This document shows, piece by piece, positions 19,421-58,790 of a DNA stretch of 64,000 bases. Position 1 is the first letter of the stretch. Every line of letters starts with the position of its first letter. The notes under the pieces were generated by a model that had not been told where the DNA came from, searched no databases, and saw only the letters and a list, made by a program, of their open reading frames with translations. Origin of the DNA: Morinoia aosen (lineage: Eukaryota > Arthropoda > Malacostraca > Amphipoda > Talitridae); the NCBI GenBank assembly GCA_030386875.1, contig CM059563.1, positions 16,386,001 through 16,450,000 of the forward strand. The letters are read 5' to 3'. The translations under genes and the position numbers were made by a program.

Positions 19421-19546
19421 AAATCTCCATCAGAACCTCGTATCATTCCATAATTTTATTTTACCTAATATCCATCCCATAGAATCAATCAGACCCTCAG
19501 TGCTAAAGATGCGTCTACAACACAGGAGAATTAAAACTCCATAAGT

Positions 19547-28330: not shown

Positions 28331-30537
28331 ATACGTCGTGAGAACCCCGAAAAATTAGTGGAGTACCCAAGGCTGTCAAAGTCATTCTGCTATAGTGAAG
28401 ATCCCAGTATAATGTCTCATTACTTCTTCCAGAGGTGAGAAATGAATAATGTAAGGTTTGTTGTTACGGGAATCTTACTGCGTTAGTGGAAACCACAGTA
28501 AATATTTTCACTGTTCTATAGAGAGGTAAAAAGTGAATTTAAGGATTGTTGCGACGAAAAAGCATCGTGAAACGTTGGTTGGAGAGTAACAAGGTGCTTT
28601 AATACTTAAAAAAAAGGATATTTGTAACTTGGTAGAGCAGCATTAAATTGGGCCGAAAACGCTACACGATAGGGGCAGACCTAGAAGAAATCGAATTAAA
28701 AATACAAGTCTGAATAAAAAAAAGGACCGCGGACACGCACGTACCTCGATCTGTACGACATTTAATAAAATGTTTTTTTACGCATATTACCCTAATAAAA
28801 CATCGCACTCAAATAACTTTGTAACAAAAATTTGCCGCGGCAGCTAGTAGAAACTCGAGCACACGAGACTTACACACGTATTGCGCACGAGACTTTCACT
28901 GCCTTGCGTTTTCTAGGAAAAATTGTCATTTCCACTCATTGAAGCTTATCAAGGATTGACTCTACTTGAAAGTTGCCACAAGGGCGGGCATGTGCAGCCC
29001 TTGACATCGTCTGCCCACTCTGCTCTGCAGTAACCTTCGTGTTCAAGACCCGGCATTTCAACCAATTCACGTTCTAACCTTACAGCTCACAGACTAAGTT
29101 CTGCATTGCAAAGGTAAAAGCTGGAAAACATAACGTAGACAAGTTCATTTAGACTAGCTTACGCTGCTAGCTCTACCGCTACGACTGTATAACTTGGCAG
29201 AAATTCCGGCAGTAGGGTTTTTGCGTGCAGCGCGCTCTAAATGTCGTCTCTGACAAATGATGCTCTGGAGGTAGGATGAATGTTACAGCAGAAGGCACAC
29301 GACACAGCTCAAAGGCAGGCAAGGACTTTTTACTTCGAGACATGCACAGCTGGTCCTAGTCTCAATTAGGGTTTTGATAAAAAAATGAGAAACAATGATA
29401 GGAATATGTTTTTTAAATAACCAAAAACATTAAACTAGCAAATACTTCATTAAACCTAATTCTGAAAACACCCATCATAATTAGTGAGAGTTGAAAAAGG
29501 CTTCTGAGGTCTCTCGTCACTCGACCTTTCAAATTCTACGATGAGGAATTGACCGTGCCAGGATGTCCACGTTCACTCTCCTGCACACGGAAAATCTCAA
29601 CAAGAAAGAACAGCAAACACCCCCCACACGCAATATACTGAACGCTCATGCATCACTGATACGTCGCGCTCAGGATTAACCAGCGAGATCAATTGTAACG
29701 CTTACATGGTTCTCGGAGCAGTTGCCGAGACCTACTCTACCCTCCTACATTTCCGCAGCCCATCTGAAGCTAAGGTAAACTATACACAGACCTTTTGCTC
29801 TCTTCCTACTTCATTTCCTGCCGTGCGACGCGCAGTACATGAAGACAAAAGAGCTGTAAATTTTTTTGCGGGCGAAAATATAGAGTGGATTTTGCCTGTC
29901 GAAATGAGCAGGAGGTGTAGAATAAGCATAAGCTCCATTCAATAAGAGGACATTGCCTTGCTACACTCAGCATATCATTTAAGGAAGTCAAACAGAACAT
30001 GTCTTCTGCTTTGATTTATACTTTTCGTATGTACTCGCACGTATATCAATTGGATGGATGCATAAGGGAAATACTTAAACTTTGTTTTGCGAACAGTATG
30101 AAAAAATAAATATATGAATGATTATTTAAGCAGCTTAGTATTTCTCGAAATTGTTTATTAGTCATTTTTTTCAAAAACTAACATTTTCAAATCCATTTCT
30201 CTCTAAAAAACTTAATATTTTATTCCAGTTACTAAAAATTCATTATATTTTGCTTCATTTTAATAATGTGTAACTAAAATTACAGATAGTTATTTTTCTT
30301 CACTTATTTTTTATTCTTTTTAGCTTTACTTTTCAATTGATAACCTGCGATTTCGTGCCTACGTTAAATACAAAATTAATTAAAACTACAATACACACAA
30401 AAAACCATCGGCAGTCTCACTTCCAGATTCATCTCGTTATACATTAATTTCCAACCTTTATAGATTAAGGTCCTTTAAGGTTGTTCACGTTTAGAAATAT
30501 ATAAAAAATGCTTCTCTGTAAAATTACTTACATTTCA
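28331..30537. other. 2.2 kb of unique DNA, no supported gene
   Basis: A+T-rich with a G+C-richer part at about 28840-29300. A 79-codon frame at 29706-29945 is unrecognised. No repeat family of this window is present. Confidence 0.5.
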
Positions 30538-30810
30538 TGCGGATTAGATGTTAATTTATCGATTCCCGTAACTCAGCAGAGGCGTTTCCACGGGAAGGAA
30601 ACGTGGACTTAAGGAAACGTGGAATCTATGCACCTTAAACAGTAAGTTGAGAAAGAAGTTTATGAAACAATAACAGTTGAAGTAGAAAATGGTAGGTGCT
30701 GCATACAGAACAGCAGTAAACCGAAAAAAGGTGATCCGTAACAGAACAAAAACCTATTCTAGTTAAACAAAAGGAAAACATACATAACCTTTAGTACGTA
30801 CCCTCCCTGG
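30538..30810 (-). mobile_element. SINE-like copy that hosts a minisatellite
   Basis: Starts with the tail region gcggattagatgttaattta. It continues with aaacgtggaatctatgcacc, gaagtttatgaaac and cataacctttagtacgtacc, reaching the ccctgggagtgctaat segment, which is then expanded into the array at 30800-31985. The SINE end follows the array. Confidence 0.85.
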
Positions 30811-31985
30811 GAGTGCTAATTGCATACCCAATTGGGAGTGCTAATAACATACATCTCTTTGGAGTGCTAAACACATACACCCCTTGGGAGTGCTAATCAC
30901 ATACACCCCTTGGGAGTGCTAATCACATACACCCCTTGAGAGTGCTAATCACATACACCCTTTGGGAGTGCTAATCACATACACCTCTTGGGAGTGCTAA
31001 TCACATATTTCCCCTGGGAGGGCAAATCACACATTCACCCTGGGAGTGCAAATCCCACATTCACCCTGGGAATGCAAATCCCACATTCACCCTGGGAATG
31101 CAAATCACACATTCCCCCTGGGAGTGCTAATCCCACATTCCCCCTGGGAGTGCTAATCACACATTCCCCCTGGGAGTGCTAATCACATATTCCCCCTGGA
31201 AGTGTTAATCACACATTCCCCCTGGGAGTGCTAATCACACATTCCCCCTGGGAGTGCTAATCACACATTCCCCCTGGGAGTGCTAATCACACATTCCCCC
31301 TGGGAGTGCTAATCACACATTCCCCCTGGGAGTGCTAATCACACATTCCCCCTGGGAGTGCTAATCACACATTCCCCCTTGGAGTGCTAATCACACATTC
31401 CCCTGGGAGTGCTAATCACACATTCCCCCTGGGAGTGCTAATCACACATTCCCCCTGGGAGTGCTAATCACACATTCCCCCTGGGAGTGCTAATCCCACA
31501 TTCCCCCTGGGAGTGCTAATCACATATTTCCCCCTGGGAGTGCTAATCACATATTCACCCTGGGAGTGCTAATCACATATTCACCCTGGGAGCGCTAATC
31601 ACACATTCCCCCTGGGAGTACTAATCACACATTCCCCCTGGGAGTGATAATCACATATTCCCCTGGGAGTGCTAATCACGCATTCCCCTGGGAGTGCTAA
31701 TCACATATTCCCCCTGGGAGTACTAATCACACATTCCCCCTGGGAGTGATAATCACACATTCCCCCTGGGAGTGATAATCACACATTCCCCTGGGAGTGC
31801 TAATCACACATTCCCCTGGGAGTGATAATCACACATTCCCCCTGGGAGTACTAATCACACATTCCCCCTGGGAGTGATAATCACATATTCCCCTGGGAGT
31901 GCTAATCACATATTCCCGTGGGAGTGCTAATCACATATTCCCCTGGGAATGCTTATCACATATTCCCCCTGGGAGTACTAATTCC
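30800..31985. repeat. 26-bp minisatellite, about 45 copies, inside a SINE copy
   Basis: The unit is cacacattccccc followed by tgggagtgctaat. This is exactly the segment that occurs once in each complete SINE copy, for example at about 23195-23220. Left-edge units (cacataca, ttgggagtgctaat) are more diverged than central ones. Confidence 0.95.
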
Positions 31986-32015
31986 CACAGAGATGATACA
32001 ATAATTATATCCACC
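31975..32015 (-). mobile_element. SINE end after the internal minisatellite
   Basis: After the last array unit, the sequence ctaattcccacagagatgat followed by acaataattatatcc is the SINE's terminal part in its normal order. Confidence 0.8.
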
Positions 32016-32840
32016 CACCAACAACATCCCCATCGTCCCAGAGGGGTACATTTCATGCAACTCTTCTTCGTTTAATATGCTCCGCCGTAAAGTGCTGTTA
32101 TGAGCAACCACAAGGAGCAGCATTATTAGCCCCAAGAATTCCAGACATTGCGGCTTCCGAAATTCCCAAGATGCTGCTACAAAATAAATGGGTTCCGGTA
32201 TGAACGAAGGTATCTTTGATACGTACAGCTTCTAAATTTGGGAGCTGAAAATAGAAATACTCTTCGATACATTTCCTATCATTTCCTCAAAGGATAGATA
32301 ACTGCTTCTTGGGTGCAAACAAACGACCATTAAGAGCTTAACTTTAGCTTTGAGTGAGAACATTTCCAGAGTCTCATATATGTTCCATTTATTATTAATT
32401 CGTCAACTAAAATGTGACAGCAGTGCTTAAAATTTCATCCAAAAAGCGTTTAAATTACTAGAAAAATGCACTACCTTTCCTCTTCTACTTGAGAGTAAAA
32501 TAATACGTCATACCTCTGTAAATGCACGTATTTTTATACTTTTTCCTATCAGTCGAAGAAAAGCTCCAAGGCGGCTAAATTTTCACGACTATAGCCTTCC
32601 TTGAAATAGTAACTAATTTTAAAGACGTGGATAAAGATATGGAAATCGCCTTTCGTATCTTCCAGCGGACTATTTTGGGTTTACTTACACTATTTTATCC
32701 ATTAATGATTCAAGGCTTAACCTACATTCCGCTGTTCAGGGATTATCACGGATAACTCAATTGAATTCGAGCTCAAGTGGAACCACGTCGGTTCAAAATT
32801 TACGTGTTCCGACCACCACAGATAGCCACGTGGCAAAAGA
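32016..32840. other. Unique DNA, no gene seen
   Basis: Only short frames. The last 13 bases (acgtggcaaaaga) are the left target duplication of the next SINE copy. Confidence 0.5.
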
Positions 32841-37636: not shown

Positions 37637-38701
37637 TGTTAGAAATTACGTATTTCTTAAATGTTCCCGTGAAGAAAAAGATTGTGTAGCTTAGGAAATT
37701 TACGTGTATGTGGTACGGAGCGGTAGCTGGAGTGTATTTGGGCAGACCATTAACTCATCATGGCCGATTCTTCGTAATTCCTTTTTTATTTTGAGTGATC
37801 ACTCTTTTGGTTTTCCTTAAGTTTAATTTACTTTTCGATGCATGTTTGAGCTCCTTTGAAACTTACCGAGAGGCCTAGTACGCTTTAAGCCCTACTTTGG
37901 GAATTTACTTAATCTCCTATTTATAGGAGTCCTTAAAACTTTAAACTTTAAACTTTAAACCTTAAAATGGGCCCATAGCGCCTAACCCAATGTTTCTACT
38001 TACCTCTTAATGAGAAGTTATCTTCTTATTACCTTAATATTACCTTAAACCTTAAAAGTACTAGGTCTTCTCTTACTTAACCTGTCTATTTTTCCTCTTA
38101 TGGCCGTTTATATATGTGCCTCTTGAAATGTGCTCATTAAAGTTTCAAGGTTGGTACAGCCGAGTAGCTCTTAATTGAGCAATTGAAATACTTTGAACGA
38201 TATGAAATTTATTCCTATAAAAAAGACAGCTGTGGCTGAGTTCAGAAAACTAACATGGTTCTTCTTCTTCTTTTAGAATAACTTGAAGTCGTCTGCCCGA
38301 GACTGCTTGCTTTCAAACCCTGCCCTATTGTCTCCGCCTTCGTTTCTCCGCCGCTCCTGTATGATTAACTTGTCGTCGCCTGAGCTGAGCTGTTTAATAA
38401 ACTCACCGTGGTGGTTCGATGCCAAGCCAGCCCGATCCGTAGGTGTTGAGAGTAGAGAAGTGAAATGTTATTGGAAATATCTAATATCTAAATAAATTCT
38501 GGTATAACCATATAAACAATACTTGATAACGATACGCTCTAAAATCGGTATATTCTGTTTCAGTTGTGTTGGGCTCCCAATTGCGGGTCCCGCGGATCTT
38601 GGTGGGATTTTTAACTTATACCGGCACATCAGGAGGTGGTCGAAGTTAAATAAAAATTGGTTCCTAGCTGTAAGGCTTTCTTTTCCTTTATAAGTCTAAC
38701 A
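37637..38701 (+). repeat. 5' LTR of the BEL/Pao element
   Basis: A 1065-bp direct repeat of 44239-45305, with short inverted ends tgttag and ctaaca. It contains runs of actttaaactttaaac and a ttcttcttctttt tract that differs in length from the other LTR. A 70-codon frame inside occurs in both LTRs and is not a separate gene. Confidence 0.95.
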
Positions 38702-38852
38702 CAATTTATTCTTTAAACTTTATTCTTGAAACTTTAATTGTTCTTGTTTACTAACCTTTCGCTTTCGTTCTTTCTTCGTTACTGACCTTTCATTTGACTT
38801 TCAAACTAGTTTAGTAATTAAGGGCTTTAAAATTGTCTTAACCTCTGCCGAA

Positions 38853-39845
38853 ATGGCAGAAAAGAATACAGGTGTTCGAGAGCGGAGCGAGGCGATACCG
38901 GACCAAGGCGACCATTTGGTGCGCAGGCGCGGGGCATTAAAGGGTAAGATCACCATTGCACTTAAAAAGTTAGCGTCGGAATCTCTTAATGCAGTTGGTA
39001 AAGAATTCTGCATTGCTCAAATTGAGCAGTATATGAGGGATATTGATGTCCTGGATTCTCAAATCAACGAAGTAGCGGAATATTCTGTGGAAGCTCTGGA
39101 AGAGCAGTTAAATTTTGCTATAAAAATAAAACAAACTCTTTCTACTTTCAAACTTGATCGTAGTGAGCCCTCAGATGGCAAGGTGTACGAAAAGCGAACG
39201 GAAATTAAATTGCCTCCATTACATTGTCCTACATTTTCTGGTGAAGGCGCGGGAAGTTTGGACTACCCTAATTTTTATCAGCAGTTCAGTAATGTCATTG
39301 ACAGTAGGGAATCTTTGTCGGATGCTGCTAAATTGACGTATTTAAAGTCTTTCCTTAGAGGTTATGCTTTGAAAATCGTAGATCACTTGTCTATTGCCGA
39401 CGAGAATTATTCAGAGGCCCTTAAAATGTTGGAACGCGAGTTCGTTGATAGAAAGGCTTTAGTTAATGATCTAATTCTAAAGTTGTACAACCTTAAGCCT
39501 AAATATCCTCCAGAGTATTTGGAAACTAAGATTTTCATTAACGAAGTTAGGGGCATTGTCAGCGATCTGAAGAAATGGGATTGTAATTTAATGGAAGGTA
39601 GTGGGAATACGATGCTTTCTGTTCTAATATTTAGTAAACTGCCTTATGCGGTGAAGCAGGAATTCAGTCGTAGGTACGATAATCATCCTTCGTGCTCAGT
39701 TATTTTCGAACATTATCCAGAGGTGATCCGTACTCTTAATCTCAAAGATGGTGTAAAAGATGCGAACAAAGGTGGTAATTTGTCCGTGGTAAAACCCTTT
39801 CTTTCCCAAGGCAACTCAGCGCAATGTTGGGGTTTCTCTCCCTAG
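38853..39845 (+). CDS. BEL/Pao gag-type protein
   Basis: A 330-residue frame beginning MAEKNTGVRERSEAIPDQGD. Residues about 110-300 match the DUF1759-type Gag of BEL/Pao elements: LPPLHCPTFSGEG, then YPNFYQQFSNVID, KLTYLKSFLRGYA and the ALKMLEREFVDR region. This protein forms the element's particle and packages its RNA. It lies about 150 bp after the 5' LTR and is followed at once by pol. In this family gag and pol commonly belong to one polyprotein that the element's protease cuts. Confidence 0.9.
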   Translation: MAEKNTGVRERSEAIPDQGDHLVRRRGALKGKITIALKKLASESLNAVGKEFCIAQIEQYMRDIDVLDSQINEVAEYSVEALEEQLNFAIKIKQTLSTFKLDRSEPSDGKVYEKRTEIKLPPLHCPTFSGEGAGSLDYPNFYQQFSNVIDSRESLSDAAKLTYLKSFLRGYALKIVDHLSIADENYSEALKMLEREFVDRKALVNDLILKLYNLKPKYPPEYLETKIFINEVRGIVSDLKKWDCNLMEGSGNTMLSVLIFSKLPYAVKQEFSRRYDNHPSCSVIFEHYPEVIRTLNLKDGVKDANKGGNLSVVKPFLSQGNSAQCWGFSP

Positions 39846-39861
39846 TGAGAACTTTCGTAAG

Positions 39862-42800
39862 TTGTGCAAGTTTTGTTCTTCTACTGATCATTCAATGGTA
39901 AAGTGTTTGAAATATACTCGCTATCAAAGTAGAGTAGATCGTTGTCGAGAATTAAGATTGTGTACTAATTGTTCTAGTGGTAAACATTCTGAGAGAGATT
40001 GTAAGAACAAATTAGATTATAGCTGTTTCATTTGTAAAAGTTTCAGCCACATTTCGGCTCTTTGTCCTCAAACTAAGCCTTCTCTCGTGAAGAATTGGTG
40101 TCTCAATTCTTCTTCTTCTTCTGAGAATACCGATTATTTACTTCCTACTATTTCTATCAAGGTTTCTCGAGGGAAGATTTCTACCACTGTTAGGTGTCTT
40201 TTGGACACAGGTTCCCAGCGCTCTTACTTGAGTGAAGAGTGTGTAGACAAGCTAGGTGTCACTTCTCCCTTTCACGAGAAGGAATTTTTTGTCAGCTCTT
40301 TTTTGGATCGCGGGGTGAGGGAATTTGCTGAAACAAGTGTTTACTTAGACTTTAATGACGGGTTAGGCAGTTTTCAGTTACCTGTGCTGATTGATAGGAA
40401 TTTCAAAATTAACTTCAAAATTGATAAACTGTCTGTTGCTATTGAGAATTTGCGGCAGTCCGTGGTTCTTGCGGACTGTGCTTTTCGTACTCCTTCTGAC
40501 TTTGTCGAGTTAGATGGGTTGTTAGATGTCGATGCTATTAGGCTGTTTAGAAAGTTAGAACTGGTGGCGTTGGGAGGTGGCTCGGCTTTCGCTGTGTCTA
40601 ATGGGTTGATTCCGTTTGGTAGTATCGAGAGCTTTCTGCCAAAACGTGAAATTGTTGCTAGGCGTGCGAGTTGTGAGCCGAGTCCTACGCGTCCTTCTGT
40701 GGAAACGGTGGAAGTTTCTACCGCCGCAAATCCGTCCGCGGTAAATTTCGTGTTGAATCCTATGGGATGTGAATTTGATCCGATTAATAGCGTCATTGTT
40801 GACAGTAATGTCGAAAGTAATTTAGATGGGCTTTTTAAAGTAGAAGCCTTAGGTGTAGAGGAAAGTGTATCTGATTATGATTCAAGTAAGATTTCAGAGT
40901 TTGAGCGTACCATTGAATTTAGAAACGGGGCTTATTACGTAGAAATACCGTGGGTTGAAGATAGGGTTCGAGAAGTTCCGTCAAATTTTCATATAGCTAG
41001 AAGTGTTCTCAATAGAGTTGTACGTAATCTTCATAAGCGTAACCTGTATGGCAAATATAATGAAGTCTTCCAACAGCAACTTCGTGAAGGAATCATTGAG
41101 GAAATCTGCCTCAATGAGGTTCAGGTTGACAAGCACGTGTGGATTCCTCACCGTGCAGTCGTTAAACAGGGTGAGCAAGTAACAACTAAGGTTAGGGTGG
41201 TGCTAAATTGCAGCCTGAAAACGGGACAGTCCCCTTCTTTAAATGAATCTGCGTACCCTGGAGTAAATTTATCGACCAATTTTGTGTCACTACTTCTTAA
41301 AGTAAGATTAAATAATAATTTAGTAATGTGCGATATCCAAAAGGCATTTTTGATGATAAAATTGAAAAATATTGCAGATCGAAATCAGTTTTCCATTTTG
41401 TGGCAAGACGAGCAGGGAAATCTTAAAGCTTACCGGTATAAATCTTTGGTTTTCGGATTTGTTTCGTCACCGTTCATCCTAAATTACGTAATAAAACATC
41501 ATGTAAGTAAATACCCTAGTGACAAAATTTCGGAAATTCTTGACGGAAATTTTTACGTAGATAATTTGTTCTTCACGGGCAATAACGTTCGGGAATTAGA
41601 GCAAACTGCTGAAACTATACTGTGTCGTATGGCGGAGGGTGGTTTTCACCTTAGATCATGGGCTTGTAACAATGATGTCCTTCAATCTGGTTTTGTGGAG
41701 AAAGGTATAGCAGTTTCTCACGAGGCTGAGTGTGAAAAGATGTTAGGCTATTGTTATTTTCCCCGTAGCGATACCGTGTCGGTAGCTCCTGTAACTTTTG
41801 AGAACCGTGACAGTGTCACAAAGAGAGTAGTGTTGTCAGAAATTTCTAAACTATTTGATCCTTTAGGTTTTTGCTTGCCCATTGCAGTTCGTGGTAAGCA
41901 ATTAATGAAAAACGTTTGGGCGACTAAACTGGGTTGGGATGATCCTCTGCCCTGTGAGTTAGTGTCTGATTTCGAAAAATTGAAATTAGATCTTGTCACC
42001 GTACCAACCGTTCATTTTTCTCGTAAGCTAGCAGGCGATGGAGAAGACGTTTCGTTGGTGATTTTCACTGACGCATCTAAACAGTTCTATGGTTTTAATT
42101 CGTACGTCGTGCCCGAAAGTCAGTCCCACCTTCCTAACTTGGTGTTCGCTAAAGTTAAAAATGCACCCGTTAAAGGGAAATCTTTGCCTACGCTGGAGTT
42201 AATGGCAGTGTTCCTCGCGCTAAAATGCCTTGACCTGATTTTGTCTTCGTTATCATCATTAAACGTTAAGAGGTTGTATGTAGGAGTTGATGCGCAGATA
42301 GTCTTGTCTTGGATTTCATCCGGTAAAGTAAAAGCAAAAAATCTATTCGCTCAAAACAGAGTGAATGATGTACTCATGTTGGTCGAGGAAATTCATCAAA
42401 AAACTGGGTTGCAGTGTAATTTTCAATACGTTCAGTCTGCCATGAACCCAAGTGACTTGCTCACGAGAGGCTTGAGTCTTAACGAGTGGAAAAAATCCCT
42501 ATCTTTGTGGAAACATGGTCCCGACTTTTTGAGGTTGAAGCCTCTACTGTGGCCCGATAGTAATTTGGGTGCCTTGTCTACTCATACTGTGGTCGGGGGC
42601 TCTAGTTCGAGTAACTTGCATGATTCTCTATTTAGGGTAGATAAGTTTGCTTCGTTGAATAAGCTGTTGAGAGTTACTGCAATTATTTTAACATTCACTC
42701 GTAAGCTTAAAAGAATTGTAACTGATCCAATTGAAGCTTTGGAACAGGCTAAAAAATACTGGCTTCGGTATGAGCAAAGTTTACATTTTCCTGAGGAAAT

Positions 42801-44211
42801 AAGTTTTTTGCAAGGCGATTCTTTTAAAGTTCCCCCTCCTCTAGTTAAGAATCTGAATCTTTTTCTAGATTCAGACAAGCTGTTGAGAGCTAGAGGACGT
42901 TTAGACAAATGTGAAATATTGAGTAGAGATGTTAAAGACCCTATCTTGCTCCCCAGATCCAGTTTCTTGACCTACCTGATAATATTAGAGTATCATAAAT
43001 CCGTTAGCCATATGGGCGTTGGTTCAACGTTGTGTGCTGTTCGTAATGCGGGGTTTTGGATTCCGAAGGGACGTGCCACTGTAAAGTCTGTTCTGTCTAA
43101 ATGTGTAGTTTGTAAAAAAATGAACAGCCTTCCCTTCAAATATCCCAAGGTTACAGATCTAGTTTCTAATCGCGTTAATTATGTAAAGCCATTTCAGCAC
43201 ACGGGAGTAGACTACACTGGTCACTTTTTTGTGAAATTTGGGGAAAGTACAACAAAAATGTATATCATTATCTTCACCTGTTTGAATATAAGGGCTATCC
43301 ATTTGGAATTAGTACCGGATATGACAACTGATAGTTTCCTGACTGCGTTCATCAGATTCACGAATTTGTTTTCCATTCCTGTAAATTTGTACTCCGATAA
43401 CTCAAGTACTTTTTTGCAGGCAGGTCAATTGCTTGGGCATGCATCAGCCGAGGACGAGTTCAACAGCTTCCTAATGAAGCATGGAGTAAAACACCTTAAA
43501 ATACCAAAGTTTTCTGCATGGGTCGGGTCGATGTGGGAGCGCCTCATACGCGTGGTGAAGAGTTGCCTTTATAAAACGATTGGAAGAAAAAAGCTGGAAT
43601 ATTTTCAGTTCATTACTTTACTAAGCGACATCTCCCAATCTGTTAACTCGCGTCCCCTGACCTACGTAGAAGCAGAAGACACAGCTTTCCTGCCTCTGAC
43701 GCCAAATTCGTTCCTGAAGATGGATACGGGCAAGAGCCTCGTCCTTCCCGCCACCGACGCCGTACTTGGTGCTGGTAGAGATGTGCTACTGGCATCTTTG
43801 CGGAGAAGGGACGAGCTGTTCGAACACTTCAAGTCGAGATGGTATGAAGAGTACGTCGTGTCCTTACGCGAGTCAGACAGAGACCGTTACGAGTCTTCCT
43901 GGACTGACGCGGTTAAGCCTGGGGATATCGTCCTTGTTTCGTCGCCAAATCAACATAGGTCTTCTTGGTCAATGGGGCGAGTTGTCGAGCTTCTCACTGG
44001 GTCCGATAAGAAGACGAGATGTGTGAAGCTGATGAAGCCGGACCGGTCGGAAGGAATTTATTCAATTAATCATCTGTATCCGTTGGAAATCTCTGCGGGT
44101 GTGGCAGAGAACTCGGCTCCCTGCGAAAGCATCATTGAAGGACTTACGAAAACCCGACCCATAAGGAAAGCTGCGCAAGAGTGTCTACGTAAAATTAAAG
44201 AGAGCAATTAA
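39862..44211 (+). CDS. BEL/Pao pol polyprotein
   Basis: A 1449-residue frame. Near the start are three CCHC zinc knuckles (about residues 2-15, 34-47 and 55-68; for example CTNCSSGKHSERDC). An aspartic protease follows with LLDTGSQRSYLS near residue 115. The Pao-type reverse transcriptase spans about 430-600 (VRVVLNCSL, MCDIQKAFLMI, FYVDNLF). Next comes the Pao-specific region with SKLFDPLGF. An RNase H-like part (VIFTDASKQFYGF, LPTLELMAV) lies at about 725-870. The integrase has an HHCC zinc-binding region (HKSVSHMG...CVVCKK) and a core (HTGVDYTGHF, YSDNSSTF) at about 1045-1260, and a DUF5641-like tail (VKPGDIVLV) closes it. These parts copy the RNA and insert the DNA. Domain order and content fit BEL/Pao and exclude Gypsy and Copia. 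Confidence 0.95.
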   Translation: MCKFCSSTDHSMVKCLKYTRYQSRVDRCRELRLCTNCSSGKHSERDCKNKLDYSCFICKSFSHISALCPQTKPSLVKNWCLNSSSSSENTDYLLPTISIKVSRGKISTTVRCLLDTGSQRSYLSEECVDKLGVTSPFHEKEFFVSSFLDRGVREFAETSVYLDFNDGLGSFQLPVLIDRNFKINFKIDKLSVAIENLRQSVVLADCAFRTPSDFVELDGLLDVDAIRLFRKLELVALGGGSAFAVSNGLIPFGSIESFLPKREIVARRASCEPSPTRPSVETVEVSTAANPSAVNFVLNPMGCEFDPINSVIVDSNVESNLDGLFKVEALGVEESVSDYDSSKISEFERTIEFRNGAYYVEIPWVEDRVREVPSNFHIARSVLNRVVRNLHKRNLYGKYNEVFQQQLREGIIEEICLNEVQVDKHVWIPHRAVVKQGEQVTTKVRVVLNCSLKTGQSPSLNESAYPGVNLSTNFVSLLLKVRLNNNLVMCDIQKAFLMIKLKNIADRNQFSILWQDEQGNLKAYRYKSLVFGFVSSPFILNYVIKHHVSKYPSDKISEILDGNFYVDNLFFTGNNVRELEQTAETILCRMAEGGFHLRSWACNNDVLQSGFVEKGIAVSHEAECEKMLGYCYFPRSDTVSVAPVTFENRDSVTKRVVLSEISKLFDPLGFCLPIAVRGKQLMKNVWATKLGWDDPLPCELVSDFEKLKLDLVTVPTVHFSRKLAGDGEDVSLVIFTDASKQFYGFNSYVVPESQSHLPNLVFAKVKNAPVKGKSLPTLELMAVFLALKCLDLILSSLSSLNVKRLYVGVDAQIVLSWISSGKVKAKNLFAQNRVNDVLMLVEEIHQKTGLQCNFQYVQSAMNPSDLLTRGLSLNEWKKSLSLWKHGPDFLRLKPLLWPDSNLGALSTHTVVGGSSSSNLHDSLFRVDKFASLNKLLRVTAIILTFTRKLKRIVTDPIEALEQAKKYWLRYEQSLHFPEEISFLQGDSFKVPPPLVKNLNLFLDSDKLLRARGRLDKCEILSRDVKDPILLPRSSFLTYLIILEYHKSVSHMGVGSTLCAVRNAGFWIPKGRATVKSVLSKCVVCKKMNSLPFKYPKVTDLVSNRVNYVKPFQHTGVDYTGHFFVKFGESTTKMYIIIFTCLNIRAIHLELVPDMTTDSFLTAFIRFTNLFSIPVNLYSDNSSTFLQAGQLLGHASAEDEFNSFLMKHGVKHLKIPKFSAWVGSMWERLIRVVKSCLYKTIGRKKLEYFQFITLLSDISQSVNSRPLTYVEAEDTAFLPLTPNSFLKMDTGKSLVLPATDAVLGAGRDVLLASLRRRDELFEHFKSRWYEEYVVSLRESDRDRYESSWTDAVKPGDIVLVSSPNQHRSSWSMGRVVELLTGSDKKTRCVKLMKPDRSEGIYSINHLYPLEISAGVAENSAPCESIIEGLTKTRPIRKAAQECLRKIKESN

Positions 44212-44238
44212 AATTGCTCAATCCGGCCGCCCGGAGTG

Positions 44239-45305
44239 TGTTAGAAATTACGTATTTCTTAAATGTTCCCGTGAAGAAAAAGATTGTGTAGCTTAGGAAA
44301 TTTACGTGTATGTGGTACGGAGCGGTAGCTGGAGTGTATTTGGGCAGACCATTAACTCATCATGGCCGATTCTTCGTAATTCCTTTTTTATTCTGAGTGA
44401 TCACTCTTTTGGTTTTCCTTAAGTTTAATTTACTTTTCGACGCATGTTTGAGCTCCTTTGAAACTTACCGAGAGGCCTAGTACGCTTTAAGCCCTACTTT
44501 AGAAATTTACTTAATCTCCTATTTATAGGAGTCCTTAAAACTTTAAACTTTAAACTTAAACCTTAAAATGGGCCCATAGCGCCTAACCCAATGTTTCTAC
44601 TTACCTCTTAATGAGAAGTTATCTTCTTATTACCTTAATATTACCTTAAACCTTAAAAGTACTAGGTCTTCTCTTACTTAACCTGTCTATTTTTCCTCTT
44701 ATGGCCGTTTATATACGTGCCTCTTGAAATGTGCTCATTAAAGTTTCAAGGTTGGTACAGCCGAGTAGCTCTTAATTGAGCAATTGAAATACTTTGAACG
44801 ATATGAAATTTATTCCTATAAAAAAGACAGCTGTGGCTGAGTTCAGAAAACTAACATGGTTCTTCTTCTTCTTCTTTTAGAATAACTTGAAGTCGTCTGC
44901 CCGAGACTGCTTGCTTTCAAACCCTGCCCTATTGTCTCCGCCTTCGTTTCTCCGCCGCTCCTGTATGATTAACTTGTCGTCGCCTGAGCTGAGCTGTTTA
45001 ATTAACTCACCGTGGTGGTTCGATGCCAAGCCAGCCCGATCCGTAGGTGTTGAGAGTAGAGAAGTGAAATGTTATTGGAAATATCTAATATCTAAATAAA
45101 TTCTGGTATAACCATATAAACAATACTTGATAACGATACGCTCTAAAATCGGTATATTCTGTTTCAGTTGTGTTGGGCTCCCAATTGCGGGTCCCGCGGA
45201 TCTTGGTGGGATTTTTAACTTATACCGGCACATCAGGAGGTGGTCGAAGTTAAATAAAAATTGGTTCCTAGCTGTAAGGCTTTCTTTTCCTTTAAAAGTC
45301 TAACA
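44239..45305 (+). repeat. 3' LTR of the BEL/Pao element
   Basis: A 1067-bp partner of the 5' LTR. It is followed by tcaa, the right target duplication. A short stretch after pol (44212-44238) carries no clear polypurine tract that I can point to. Confidence 0.95.
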
Positions 45306-45429
45306 TCAAGCTAATGAAATTTTGAAGTCCGTGACGGAAGTATGTTTCGCAATTATCTGTGATACGCGAGCTCAGTTATTTGCGAGGAAATAATTTTCCC
45401 GCCTGTTAAATTACAAAGGCACTAGTCGA

Positions 45430-47060: not shown

Positions 47061-47149
47061 AGGCTCAAGCAATATTTGGCTTACGTAATTTTTAGAGCGT
47101 GTAACACAGAAGTTGTGAAATACTGGGGTCGTAGAATATTTCTATAATG

Positions 47150-47330
47150 CAATCTATACTATAATAAGAGCCGCGTCCGTCCGTCTGTCTGTCTATCCGA
47201 AGCCAGCCTGCAGTGTGTGATGAGCGTATCTGTGATACAAGCTCCAGCCCTATATATTTTGACGGGCCGTGTTCACGCGGCCTCATCAACTCTCGAGAAA
47301 TTTAATTTTTTTTATTTCTTACTGCCTCTT
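47150..47330 (+). mobile_element. Possible Helitron-like end
   Basis: tctatactataataagag follows an A, as expected for a Helitron 5' end inserted between A and T, and is followed by a gtccgtccgtctgtctgtc run. The 3' end and hairpin were not identified, so this is tentative. Confidence 0.3.
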
Positions 47331-47389
47331 TTCATTTCGCCTTCTTTCTTATTTCAAATACAGAGGGTGGACTAGTGTGTCTAATGTAT

Positions 47390-47715
47390 GATGTTTGGTC
47401 CTCACAATGTTAGGCTTATTTAATGCTAGGGTTATATATCTATTGGCTTACACAATGCATGTTTGACACACAAGACGTTTGGCTAACACATAATGCTAGA
47501 CTTGAGTCATATTCGGATTATAAAATCGTATGAAATGCTTTCCTTTTATAAAATTTGCCTTCTTTTATGTTTGCCTTATATAATGTATAGCTTACTTACT
47601 ATTAAACTTCTATAACGTTGGCTTTATATAAGGTTGGCTTACATGTTTGACATTGGCGTGCAACATGCTTAGCTCGTAAAATGTTTGCCCCGTGAAAGGC
47701 TTGGTTCTCCTTAGC
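47390..47715. repeat. Decayed continuation of the 16-bp array
   Basis: Degenerate units such as ggcttatttaatgcta, ggcttacacaatgcat, ggctttatataaggtt and agctcgtaaaatgttt recur at irregular spacing and resemble ggctcattcaacgatt. They suggest that the array was once longer and was interrupted at 47100-47390. Confidence 0.55.
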
Positions 47716-48084
47716 TTATATTTATTTCTGTTTACAACACGTAGAACTCAACTCTCTTGCAATGATTACTAACTTCTTCGTTACCCCGCGTATTTGAATA
47801 GCAAGATTGAAAGAAAATAAAAGTTAAAGACATGATTTAAACAATGATCTAGCTGCTACACCCAACATCCAAAATAAGTAAACCCAATGTGTAAAATAAC
47901 CAGGTTTCAATAGATACATTAGTGCTTTATTTTGAAGGAAAATTAACTTCATATTTTAGGGTCAGTTATGTGCGCTACAAGAGGACATTTTTAGTGGCAA
48001 GTCCACATTAAAAATTTCTGCTCAAGTCCCTTGCTGGTAACTACAAAACATTGATGAAACTGGGAACTACTTAACATTTTATAC
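47716..48084. other. Unique DNA, no gene seen
   Basis: The segment near 47760-47830 (gattactaacttcttcg, then gcaagattgaaagaaa) resembles 45505-45570, so it is probably a small shared repeat. Confidence 0.4.
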
Positions 48085-48425
48085 CGGATGTTAGATACGT
48101 TAGTAAGTCTCCCTAACCACAACAAAGGTGTTCGAAATAGGAAGGATGAAAACCCTATTCGGTATGGAGTTCAGGGAATGCGAAATCTATGCAGAAGGTG
48201 TGTTTTCACTCAAGATCCTGTGCCCATAGGAACAGTAATTTAAAAAGGAAGACTATGAAACAAACTAAAAGTTGAAGAAGAAAGTCTGAGCTGCTGAAAA
48301 ACAGGACACCAGTGAAACAAAATAAGATGGTCCTTAACTAAACAAAAACATTTCCTTTCAACGAAAAGAAGGCCTACCCAACTTTCAGCACGGGACCTCA
48401 CATTTTTCCTCTGAATGTCCTACCT
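48085..48425 (-). mobile_element. SINE-like copy, extra-segment subfamily
   Basis: Carries agtctccctaaccacaacaa, gaaggtgtgttttcactcaa, gtgctgaaa-like ctgctgaaaaacagg, and gcctacccaactttcagc. The terminal end is lost. Confidence 0.8.
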
Positions 48426-49650
48426 GCATACCAGAATGAAGGATGTGATTTCCCAGCCCACATCGGAGCCCCACAGCGGAACGTAAAATGAGGCCAATGC
48501 TAAGACGTCTCTTTTGGTTGCAGGGGAACAATACACAGGCGTTCTCTTTTGAATTCCGTCACAAAGGGATCATGCAGGACAATTTTGGCATTCTTTAAAC
48601 GGCCCAAAGCAAAGAAGTGTACCAAAATGCGCTGATGCGAGCACATTTCTCCAGTCACAGAGAAAACATTGAGCGAATCTCCATACAGAGATTTGAGCTA
48701 AAAAATATCAGGAAAAAACGTCAGTTTACGAAAACAACTCACGATCGTCACGCATCATGATGATCCACGTATCTGATGAAAGCAGCATCGAATTACAGGT
48801 GTAGGGAATAACATTATAATTAGGATGAAAAAGGGGAGCAATGTACATTGCTTATTTCAAACGTTTCGGGATATTTTAAGTTCTATCTTCAGCGCTGAAC
48901 CACGAAAGGAAAAGTCAAACTTAAAACACACATCACAATGGTTTAGGTAATCATTTCATTCATCTTCTATACTCCATGTTCTGACTTTGCTGTTCATGGG
49001 CACCAACTAATGGGGCCTATGTAGAAGTCTATTAAATGAGGTAAAAAAAACATTAATCAACGCTAGACACTAAAGAACAAGTCTGAATAAAATATCTCAG
49101 CAATAGGATTTGTAATTAATTTTAGAAATGAACAAAACTTCAATAAACGCTGAACTCAATAGAACAAATCTGACTAAAATATTCTACCAATTGCATTAGT
49201 AATAAATTTTTTAAATAGTGAAGAGACTTTATGGACTGTATTTGGCTGCTGTAAGTAAAGGCGTAGAACAAACCTACCGTCGCACGCACACTTTGCTCTC
49301 GACAGTGCAAGACAAATCTCAACGGCTGTGTTTAGCTAAATAATAACAAGGGGAGGACTAATTTCACCGAGAAATAAATGCTCCACGCACAACTCCAGTC
49401 ATGTTGTTGCTCAAAAATCTTCTATACCAAAGATTTATTCGTGAAAAAATTTGAACTGAGGACACGAGTCGGTTTACGTTTAATGGAATTATTTGCACTT
49501 GAGTCTACGAGATCCAAAGTTTTATTAACAGAACAAATAGGAAAATAAATCTAGATAAAATGATATAACTCGTCTGAGACGCAACTGCCTGAAAGAGCAA
49601 AGCACCCAGGAACGCAAGACACAAGCTAGGACCTGAAGCATGGAGACGAA
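48426..49650. other. Unique DNA, no gene seen
   Basis: Short frames only. A local duplication of a stretch like aacgctgaactc...aacaaatctgaataaaat occurs around 49050-49180. Confidence 0.45.
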
Positions 49651-49933
49651 CAATGCTGATTTAATGCTGAACAATGCTGACTTAATGCTGAACAATGCTG
49701 ACTTAATGCTGAACAATGCTGACTTAATGCCGAACAATGCTGACTTAATGCTGAACAATGCTGACTTAATGCTGAACAGTGCTGAACAGTGCTGAACAAT
49801 GCTGACTTAATGCTGAACAATGCTGATTTAATGCTGAACAATGCTGACTTAATGCCGAACAATGCTGACTTGATGCTGAACAATGCTGACTTAATGCCGA
49901 ACAATGCTGACTTAATGCTGAACAATGCTGTCT
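49651..49933. repeat. 21-bp minisatellite, about 13 copies
   Basis: The unit is aacaatgctgacttaatgctg. As 21 is a multiple of three, each frame is periodic (LNNADLM on plus, SALFSIK on minus). An irregular patch (gaacagtgctgaacagtgct) lies near 49773-49796. Confidence 0.95.
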
Positions 49934-50229
49934 CAAATACTCGTACCGCAGAAATGCCTCAAACACTTCAGAGAAGCCGCGGAAAGAGCTAAGGAGTCAG
50001 TAAGAATGTTGGGCGTCGTGAAAGTGGAAAGACGTGTTTATGGTAAACATTTAACAAAACTCAAAAAAAAATTGGAGCAGGAATGAAAGAGTGGTCTCAA
50101 AAAAGAGCTCTAATAGAAGCAGTGGTTTCAATACACTACTTGAAAAGGAGCGATAGGCCGCATTAAAAGGGCGCTAACATATGAAATTGGCCTAAAAAAT
50201 GGGTTCTAATAGAAAAGGTTAGTATCAAT

Positions 50230-50560
50230 ACGGAGCTGTAACATTAGAGAATGGCCTCAATAAAAGGCAATAACAGAAGAGGGGCCTAAATAGAGGGTAA
50301 TAACAGGAGAGGGGCCTCAATAAAGGGTAATAACATAAAAGGGGCCTCAATAGAAGGTAATAACAGAAGAGGGACCTCAATAAAGGCTAATAACAGTAAG
50401 AAGGGCCTCAACAAAGGCTGAAAACATGGAGAAGGGCCTCAATAAAGGGTAATAACAGTGAGAGGTACCTCAATAGAGGGTAATAACAGAACAGGGCCTC
50501 AATAAACGGTAATAACAGAAGAGGGGCCTCAATAAAGGCTATTAACAGTGAGAGGAGCCT
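50230..50560. repeat. Diverged ~30-bp array leading into the 22-bp array
   Basis: Units carry aggggcctcaataaagggta and ataacagaag. They share ggcctcaa and aacag with the following 22-bp unit, so the shorter unit probably arose from this one by internal deletion. Confidence 0.85.
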
Positions 50561-52917
50561 CAATACCCGGAGAGAGAGGCCTCAACAACAGAGCAGAGAG
50601 GCCTCAACAACAGAACAGAGAGGCCTCAACAACAGAGCAGAGAGGCCTCAACAACAGAGCAGAGAGGCCTCAACAACAAAACAGAGAGGCCTCAACAACA
50701 GAGCAGAGAGGCCTCAACAACAGAACAGAGAGGCCTCAACAACAGAGCAGAGAGGCCTCAACAACAGAGCAGAGAGGCCTCAACAACAAAACAGAGAGGC
50801 CTCAACAACAGAGCAGAGAGGCCTCAACAACAGAGCAGAGAGGCCTCAACAACAGAGCAGAGAGGCCTCAACAACAAAACAGAGAGGCCTCAACAACAGA
50901 GCAGAGAGGCCTCAACAACAAAACAGAGAGGCCTCAACAACAGAGAAGAGAGGCCTCAACAACAGAACAGAGAGGCCTCAACAACAGAGCAGAGAGGCCT
51001 CAACAACAGAGCAGAGAGGCCTCAACAACAGAGCAGAGAGGCCTCAACAACAGAGCAGAGAGGCCTCAACAACAGAGCAGAGAGGCCTCAACAAAAAAAC
51101 AGAGAGGCCTCAACAACAGAGCAGAGAGGCCTCAACAACAGAACAGAGAGGCCTCAACAACAGAGCAGAGAGGCCTCAACAACAGAACAGAGAGGCCTCA
51201 ACAACAGAACAGAGAGGCCTCAACAACAGAGCAGAGAGGCCTCAACAACAGAGCAGAGAGGCCTCAACAACAGAGCAGAGAGGCCTCAACAACAGAACAG
51301 AGAGGCCTCAACAACAGAGCAGAGAGGCCTCAACAACAGAACAGAGAGGCCTCAACAACAGAGCAGAGAGGCCTCAACAACAGAGCAGAGAGGCCTCAAC
51401 AACAGAACAGAGAGGCCTCAACAACAGAACAGAGAGGCCTCAACAACAGAACAGAGAGGCCTCAACAACAGAACAGAGAGGCCTCAACAACAGAACAGAG
51501 AGGCCTCAACAACAGAGCAGAGAGGCCTCAACAACAGAGCAGAGAGGCCTCAACAACAGAGCAGAGAGGCCTCAACAACAGAGCAGAGAGGCCTCAACAA
51601 CAGAGCAGAGAGGCCTCAACAACAGAACAGAGAGGCCTCAACAACAGAGCAGAGAGGCCTCAACAACAGAGCAGAGAGGCCTCAACAACAAAACAGAGAG
51701 GCCTCAACAACAGAGCAGAGAGGCCTCAACAACAAAACAGAGAGGCCTCAACAACAAAACAGAGAGGCCTCAACAACAGAGCAGAGAGGCCTCAACAACA
51801 GAACAGAGAGGCCTCAACAACAGAGCAGAGAGGCCTCAACAACAGAGCAGAGAGGCCTCAACAACAAAACAGAGAGGCCTCAACAACAGAGCAGAGAGGC
51901 CTCAACAACAAAACAGAGAGGCCTCAACAACAGAGCAGAGAGGCCTCAACAACAAAACAGAGAGGCCTCAACAACAGAACAGAGAGGCCTCAACAACAGA
52001 GCAGAGAGGCCTCAACAACAAAACAGAGAGGCCTCAACAACAGAGCAGAGAGGCCTCAACAACAGAGCAGAGAGGCCTCAACAACAAAACAGAGAGGCCT
52101 CAACAACAGAACAGAGAGGCCTCAACAACAGAGCAGAGAGGCCTCAACAACAAAACAGAGAGGCCTCAACAACAGAGCAGAGAGGCCTCAACAACAGAGC
52201 AGAGAGGCCTCAACAACAAAACAGAGAGGCCTCAACAACAGAACAGAGAGGCCTCAACAACAGAGCAGAGAGGCCTCAACAACAAAACAGAGAGGCCTCA
52301 ACAACAGAGCAGAGAGGCCTCAACAACAGAGCAGAGAGGCCTCAACAACAGAGCAGAGAGGCCTCAACAACAGAGCAGAGAGGCCTCAACAACAGAGCAG
52401 AGAGGCCTCAACAACAGAGCAGAGAGGCCTCAACAACAGAGCAGAGAGGCCTCAACAACAGAGCAGAGAGGCCTCAACAACAGAGCAGAGAGGCCTCAAC
52501 AACAGAGCAGAGAGGCCTCAACAACAGAGCAGAGAGGCCTCAACAACAGAGCAGAGAGGCCTCAACAACAGAACAGAGAGGCCTCAACAACAGAGCAGAG
52601 AGGCCTCAACAACAGAGCAGAGAGGCCTCAACAACAGAGCAGAGAGGCCTCAACAACAGAGCAGAGAGGCCTCAACAACAGAACAGAGAGGCCTCAACAA
52701 CAGAGCAGAGAGGCCTCAACAACAGAGCAGAGAGGCCTCAACAACAGAGCAGAGAGGCCTCAACAACAGAACAGAGGGGCCTCAACAACAGAACAGAGGG
52801 GCCTCAACAACAGAACAGAGAGGCCTCAACAACAGAACAGAGGGGCCTCAACAACAGAACAGAGGGGCCTCAACAACAGAACAGAGAGGCCTCAACAACA
52901 GAACAGAGGGGCCTGAA
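50561..52917. repeat. 22-bp minisatellite, about 107 copies
   Basis: The unit is gaggcctcaacaacagagca with two more bases. Variants are gaaca, aaaca and, at the right edge, agaggg. One plus-strand frame is open for 794 codons because 22 is not a multiple of three and the unit has no stop in any of the three plus phases. The peptide is a Q-, R- and N-rich 22-residue repeat. The array holds no ATG and the frame begins at a GTG, so a translated gene is not supported. Confidence 0.95.
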
Positions 52918-57731: not shown

Positions 57732-57939
57732 TCATATTATGGTACGAGCACAGCAAAAAGTTTAATTCAAATAGTAATAACGAACAATATAAATGATGAT
57801 GACTCATATGATGACTCTGCCTGCATAATGAACATACAGGTCTCGCTAAATATAACGGTAGGATTCTTGTTGAATTACATTATATTTACGATTAAATGAG
57901 ACTGTATATATAACAGTAAATAACATGCTTAATTGGACG

Positions 57940-58320
57940 GAAAATATATCTATATATGTGACGGATAATTTGACGGGAAATGTAGTTATATATGTAACGG
58001 CAAATATGACGGCAAATATAACGGCAAATAAGACGGCATATATGACGAGAAATAGAACGGTAAATCGAACGGTAAATCGAACGGTAAATCGAACGGTAAA
58101 TAGAACGGTAAATCGAACGGTAAATCGAACGATAAATAGAACGATAAATAGAACGATAAATAGAACGATAAATAGAACGATTAATAGAACGATAAATAGA
58201 ACGATAAATAGAACGATAAATAGAACGATAAATAGAACGATAAATAGAACGATTAATAGAACGATAAATAGAACGATAAATAGAACGATAAATAGAAGGA
58301 TAAATAGAAGGGTAAATAGA
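57940..58320. repeat. 12-bp minisatellite, left part
   Basis: The unit is agaacgataaat (also agaacggtaaat). The first ~100 bp are degenerate (aacggcaaatat). As 12 is a multiple of three, it reads INRT or LFIV repeats. A SINE copy splits the array. Confidence 0.93.
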
Positions 58321-58682
58321 TTATTATTATTATATAAGAAAGTTTTAGCCTCCCTTAACCACGACAAAGATGTTCCAAGAGAGGAAAGAGGAAGGCACCA
58401 TTTAGTATGGAGTTGAGGGAACGTGGAATCTATGCACAAGGTGCACAGAAACAGTAAGCTAGGAAAGAAGTTCATGAAACAAGAAAAAAGTTGAAGAAGA
58501 AAGTAGTAGGTTGTGAAAAACAGGACAGCAGTGAACAGAAAAAAGATGGCCCATAACAAAATAAAAACCTATTCTATTTCAACAAAAATAAAGCCTACCT
58601 AACCTTTAGCTCAGGCCCTCACATAGTCCCCCTGGGAGCGCTAATTCCCATAGATACAATAGTTGTATCCCCCTGAGGGGAA
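58321..58682 (-). mobile_element. SINE-like copy, full length, inserted in the 12-bp array
   Basis: Flanked by agggtaaataga on both sides (58309-58320 and 58683-58694), which is array sequence. The tail is a run of TTA at the left, and the constant end tgtatccccctgagggg is at the right. It is close to the family consensus and lacks the extra ~30-bp segment, so it is a good reference copy. Confidence 0.93.
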
Positions 58683-58790
58683 AGGGTAAATAGAACGATA
58701 AATAGAACGATAAATAGAACGATAAATAGAACGATAAACAGAACGATAAATAGAACGATAAACAGAACGGTAAATAGAACGGTGTCTTGT
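58683..58790. repeat. 12-bp minisatellite, right part
   Basis: Continuation of agaacgataaat units after the SINE insertion, about eight copies. Confidence 0.9.

Follow-up and report, generated by a model that had tools for sequence, protein, structure and literature searches.

In a 64,000-nucleotide stretch of the Morinoia aosen genome (GenBank assembly GCA_030386875.1, contig CM059563.1, forward-strand positions 16,386,001 to 16,450,000; hereafter the window), a tandem array of about 45 units is enclosed by pieces of a short retroposon. A preliminary description made from the letters alone had read positions 30538..32015 as a minisatellite born inside a SINE. The locus raises the question of whether the array really grew out of the retroposon that surrounds it, and at what time, or whether it came with the element, was there before it, or was made by the assembly.

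One insertion on both sides of the array

An exact 12-bp sequence, TACATTTCATGC, lies directly outside both retroposon ends, at 30529-30540 and at 32047-32058, and both occurrences are also present in a near-identical copy of the region (L002). Over the positions allowed, the chance expectation of such a match is about 2e-5. Because this target-site duplication directly abuts both ends, the retroposon extends over 30541-32046; the preliminary description had placed the array correctly in a retroposon, but its right limit, 32015, falls short of the true insertion end at 32046. Aligned to other copies, 30541-30808 is the 3' part of a SINE-like retroposon on the minus strand, with degenerate tail and body. 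The array occupies 30809-31982, and 31983-32046 is the retroposon 5' end, also on the minus strand, which reads TTCCCA... to ...CAGAGGGG on the plus strand, is flush with the target duplication and carries additional bases ahead of AGAGGGG relative to other copies. Which side is the tail was judged by young copies, whose ends are (TTA)n. A simple-repeat end of a retroposon is normally its 3' end, so the insertion reads on the minus strand, with the array near its 5' end; the orientation first given was not fully borne out.

By BLAST, 30604-30821 matched approximately consensus positions 89-328 and 31956-32015 matched consensus 301-355; the two ranges overlap solely within the repeated segment. 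The degraded outer ends, 30541-30603 and 32016-32046, were placed by MAFFT alone. When the flanks were joined and aligned by MAFFT with six copies from the window and six from elsewhere, they formed one retroposon copy in which one segment is replaced by the array, which agrees with the earlier statement that a left part precedes and a terminal part follows it. Ordinary copies, in the window and in the genome, hold this segment once, for example as TCACATAGTCCCCCTGGGAGCGC(T/C)AATTCCCATAG, also as first described, and the array unit is homologous to it. Thus the array has remnants of one insertion on its two sides and a single exact 12-bp duplication pair around them. Two separate insertions around an older array, each with its own duplications, would have to contend with that single identical pair, with complementary flanks and with a unit homologous to the element itself; nothing was found in its favour, and we regard this reading as practically ruled out by the TACATTTCATGC pair, unless the 12-bp match is due to chance.

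The retroposon family and the orientation of its copies

The element is short and has very many copies: the consensus is 366 bp, simple-repeat end included, and the genome contains 25,810 occurrences of one exact 20-mer of it. In young copies, the left end is (TTA)n and the right end is the fixed sequence CTGAGGGG. We aligned 21 of them and tested 19, setting aside one copy without anchor and the partial copy L076. Duplications of 12-15 bp adjoin the (TTA)n end in 17 of the 19 (three of the 17 with one mismatch), and in the other two the duplications are longer and ambiguous. The family therefore has target-site duplications and a simple-repeat 3' end. No tRNA was found among six loci searched, Rfam gave no match at E<=1 in five loci, and matches of the consensus to the A and B boxes were no better than those of a shuffled consensus. 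For lack of a tRNA, an Rfam family or a convincing A/B box in these searches, we prefer the label SINE-like; the name SINE used at first is in line with the copy number, the duplications and the simple-repeat end, and no polymerase-III head was recognised.

All 24 retroposon fragments at window positions 1924-63368 lie on one strand, and they represent about 20 insertions, not 24, because three fragments belong to the array copy. Genome-wide, the strand totals of the exact 20-mer are balanced (13,108 forward and 12,702 reverse). Among the first 100 of the 25,810 matches listed, all in C1:0.8-11.1 Mb, 74 of 99 neighbours had the same strand, against a mean of 50 and a maximum of 72 in 100,000 shuffles; pairs less than 30 kb apart agreed in 76 of 84 cases, and about one half agreed beyond 400 kb. 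After removal of the last dense cluster and thinning to more than 2 kb, agreement was 47 of 70 (p 0.002). For a second 20-mer, with which C1 was sampled to 44.7 Mb and whose matches below 11.1 Mb lie partly in the same copies as the first, 61 of 99 neighbours agreed (p 0.01), as did 15 of 17 pairs closer than 30 kb; in the part of C1 new to the sample, 11 of 13 close pairs and 48 of 82 of all neighbours agreed (p 0.06). Part of the close pairs is local duplication, two pairs being exactly 1,709 bp apart.

Nearby copies thus usually share their strand in the sampled stretch of C1, and gene direction, replication direction and insertion near older copies are candidate causes. In mouse, recently inserted intronic SINEs are 41.6% sense according to the relevant passage of PMC3446317, a bias too weak to produce the observed agreement. 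The sign of A/T skew outside retroposon and arrays matched the retroposon strand at 9 of 12 copy-bearing places (18 examined), and base skew was judged weak as a cause of strand domains. One young copy in the window (58320-58680, 96.7% to the consensus) is flanked by a 12-bp minisatellite at 57930-58320 and 58687-58781. As the 12-bp units are on both sides, this copy appears to have been inserted into an existing array, the reverse of the relation at the main array.

The array in the window and in a regional copy

The array (30809-31982, minus strand) was delimited by TRF, by a motif parse and by a junction restricted to it and its regional copy. TRF gave period 26 and 45.5 copies at 30808-31982, its rows for multiples of the period starting at 30805. 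The motif parse gave 46 motif starts from 30809 to 31971 with 29 distinct strings; 35 units are 26 bp long, nine are 25 bp and one is 27 bp, and the final motif merges into the retroposon end. These counts confirm the repetition of about 45 times at 26 bp that had been noticed before. The unit is CACACATTCCCCCTGGGAGTGCTAAT. The mean edit distance to the array consensus, per fifth from left to right, is 5.0, 1.44, 0.33, 1.67 and 1.89, so the array is degenerate at both edges, far more at the left than at the right. This gradient is consistent with central turnover and degenerate edges. The left units, which had been called older-looking, are indeed the most diverged (mean 5.0); this divergence is no proof that they are older.

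The junction between two units, searched with up to three mismatches in the 1.99-Gb genome, gave 77 matches, and all 77 lie in this array or at C8:15041253-15042756, in the near-identical copy. A query made of pure array gave three candidate loci: this array, the near-identical copy and L077 (C5:68080411), a short, diverged retroposon copy with short partial duplications. Diverged arrays could escape this query because the search skips very common words. An array of this kind at several different insertion sites was found neither with the junction pattern nor with the array-only query. The array might have been part of a mobile subfamily and already expanded on arrival, for which there is a precedent in SVA, described in PMC3389668 as a retroposon with a built-in VNTR part. 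The confinement of the junction and the lack of another array in the array-only query strongly disfavour this origin, and we hold it to be very improbable.

A widespread 26-bp array free of retroposon flanks was likewise not found by the pure-array query and the junction pattern, and was rejected on these two together with the comparison of loci. A separate dispersed 26-bp repeat, GGAGTGCTAATAGACAAACCATACGA, shares GGAGTGCTAAT with the array and occurs on C17 (71927866-71930053), C12, C16, C2 and C11 (L046, L051-L055); the remainder of its unit differs from that of this array. Of the six such loci read, five have no retroposon match and L046 has one outside its array. The 26-bp families obtained with a loose pattern, namely C17 and its relatives, C5:51834815 and C15:48292751, were rejected as relatives, their spacers being unrelated.

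From position 436 (the start of the compared stretch) to about 52.9 kb, the window matches C8 from 15010001 to 15067877, that is, a regional copy 1.376 Mb upstream on the same chromosome, with about 99.9% identity outside arrays. Two paralogous matches excluded, the 43,136 bases aligned outside arrays contain 47 mismatches, 28 of them in the three final segments (47068-50238); the lengths also differ by some hundred bases near 3.03 and 16.75 kb. In the regional copy the array has one extra unit, GGGAGTACTAATCACACATTCCCCCT, beside an identical neighbour, and the order of units is otherwise the same, giving 46 against 47 motif starts in two near-identical regions of one assembly. Between the regions, the left flank of the array (2,477 bp) has no mismatch and the right flank (3,732 bp) has one. 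It means that the array, like a VNTR, differs in length by a whole unit, as seen in two regions of one assembly. That the array length is an assembly artefact could be suspected from the presence of the region twice, about 1.376 Mb apart, where one copy may itself be retained haplotype; the same ordered string of units in both copies, except one inserted unit, makes an artefact highly unlikely.

The homology stops inside a 22-bp array ending at 52914. Two 1-kb tests of the extent of the regional copy gave no match and are uninformative, as the offset drifts. A match of 94% links a point at C8:15.300 Mb to 13.880 Mb instead, and because of it we read the regional repeat either as retained haplotype sequence or as a direct repeat on a larger scale, of about 1.4 Mb.

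The window has a very heavy minisatellite load in the TRF list, with arrays at 154, 19536, 26035, 27771, 35715, 45766, 46546, 49648, 50573 (106 x 22 bp), 53868 (69 x 40 bp), 60244 and others. Of 20 arrays merged from this list, 13 could be anchored in the regional copy. Six of these, at 19536, 27771, 30805, 45766, 46546 and 49648, have length differences of at least about one unit, with 1,956 bp for the one at 49648; among the remaining anchored arrays one differs by 1 bp and six are equal. At 37637-45309 there are open frames resembling an LTR retrotransposon; a Pfam scan of ten window ORFs gave one match, DUF1759 at 38730-39842. Candidate LTRs of that element are the stretches 37637-38704 and 44239-45309: in the regional copy, each finds a match of about 98.8% at the position of the other one.

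Origin of the array and duplications in sister copies

The flanks belong to a single insertion, the unit comes from inside the element, and the two near-identical regions differ by one whole unit. On these grounds we consider it very probable that, in this one inserted retroposon, a segment of 26 bp close to the 5' end was duplicated after the insertion and grew in place to about 45 units. The proposal of the preliminary description, expansion of an internal retroposon segment, is thus upheld by the duplication pair, the homology and the unique junction. After the insertion of the non-autonomous SINE-like element, short repeats would have led to the first duplication through slippage or misaligned repair, and slippage or unequal exchange would have brought the later growth to about 45 units. 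Homogenisation would have been strongest in the middle of the array, leaving diverged units at the edges. We place the expansion after the insertion because the junction is unique to this insertion, and the array is probably a neutral consequence of replication and recombination acting on repeat-prone DNA, with no cellular role indicated.

Template slippage during the reverse transcription of this copy, in place of later change in the chromosome, would suit a junction unique to one insertion equally well as far as the first duplication is concerned. The diverged left side, the near-uniform centre and the one-unit difference point to continued chromosomal change, and we consider this alternative unlikely. 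The exact founding event is not readable because the first unit and the left junction are degraded. In the consensus of young copies, the only direct repeat available for a 26-bp founder is CATAG, which recurs at an offset of 27, not 26, so that no clean short direct repeat stands where a starting one would be expected, although TCACATAG and TCCCATAG resemble each other. A hairpin in the unit as the cause of expansion was dropped, since the DNA folding z-scores were weak: -0.41 on the plus and -1.29 on the minus strand for three units, and -0.96 and -2.13, respectively, for a single unit.

Transposon-born minisatellites are already known, also from mammals, and this is a further, long case. 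Published examples derive from Alu, B1 and LTR elements (PMC6947457, PMC3389668), and the human figures given in PMC3389668 are 7,276 TE-derived minisatellites among 31,472 studied and an average of 2.30-2.42 units for Alu-derived repeats, some having 15 units or more, such as 17 x 52 bp. As in the Alu minisatellites of Jurka and Gentles (2006, as cited in PMC6947457 and PMC3389668), an internal segment is repeated in place; short direct repeats are thought to start the Alu arrays, according to the same two sources. The present array differs in its unrelated element, its approximately 45 units and its TTAGG-rich genome, which has 15,492 overlapping matches to this motif. TTAGG is the usual telomere motif of arthropods. 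Like the unstable B1-derived array (1998 work cited in PMC6947457), it expanded from a short retroposon; that unit is described there as 6 bp, and here it is 26 bp at one locus. It shares with SVA a tandem repeat within a non-autonomous retroposon, whereas the SVA repeat belongs to the mobile unit, as PMC3389668 describes it, and this array is confined to one insertion. In the model of Haber and Louis, as described in PMC6947457, short direct repeats bound the founder unit, an arrangement that the 26-bp unit, with CATAG at 27 bp, would fit less well.

Other copies of the family also have internal duplications. Two copies of CTGGGAGYGC close together were found 85 times, against 60 for the reversed control, a high background; from the 85 we chose by eye five loci with retroposon-like spacers and read all five. 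Each is a retroposon copy with a 17-23-bp duplication of the same segment, with differing end points. They are L082 (22 bp x1.9 by TRF, in a copy whose terminal part is missing), L083 (17 bp x2.1) and L084 (23 bp x2.9), both also by TRF, and L085 and L086 (19 bp x2 by motif spacing, with no TRF report). The look for other loci with the segment expanded, as first suggested, thus gave five short duplications. A control segment of the retroposon gave 34 matches against 0 in its control; judged by the spacers, it is duplicated at 10 to 13 loci, since 10 have the spacer of the element itself and three have variant spacers, and the remaining matches have foreign ones. With this one control segment duplicated at more loci (13 vs 5), the segment of the array was rejected as a special hotspot.

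We read two of the 13 control-segment loci. L088 has three units of 22 bp in a retroposon copy with both ends. In L087 (C17:45440980-45441382) a segment from mid-element is repeated in at least 17.5 units of 23 bp; on one side the array reaches the edge of the stretch examined and on the other is the rest of the element, so one flank is seen. At the L087 segment, the consensus has GAAAAA words exactly 23 bp from each other, as in the Haber and Louis model described in PMC6947457.

Stages of about two units, three, 17 or more, and 45 could therefore be read among copies. The value of this family lies in such a series of minisatellite birth stages within one element family: because sister copies give the exact unexpanded state, the founding step, which is usually lost, can be compared with growth. 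Tentatively, the retroposon family might be a minisatellite nursery, in which several slippage-prone segments, across tens of thousands of copies, give recurrent births of arrays at set places inside the element, few of them becoming large, and in this way feed the minisatellite load of the window.
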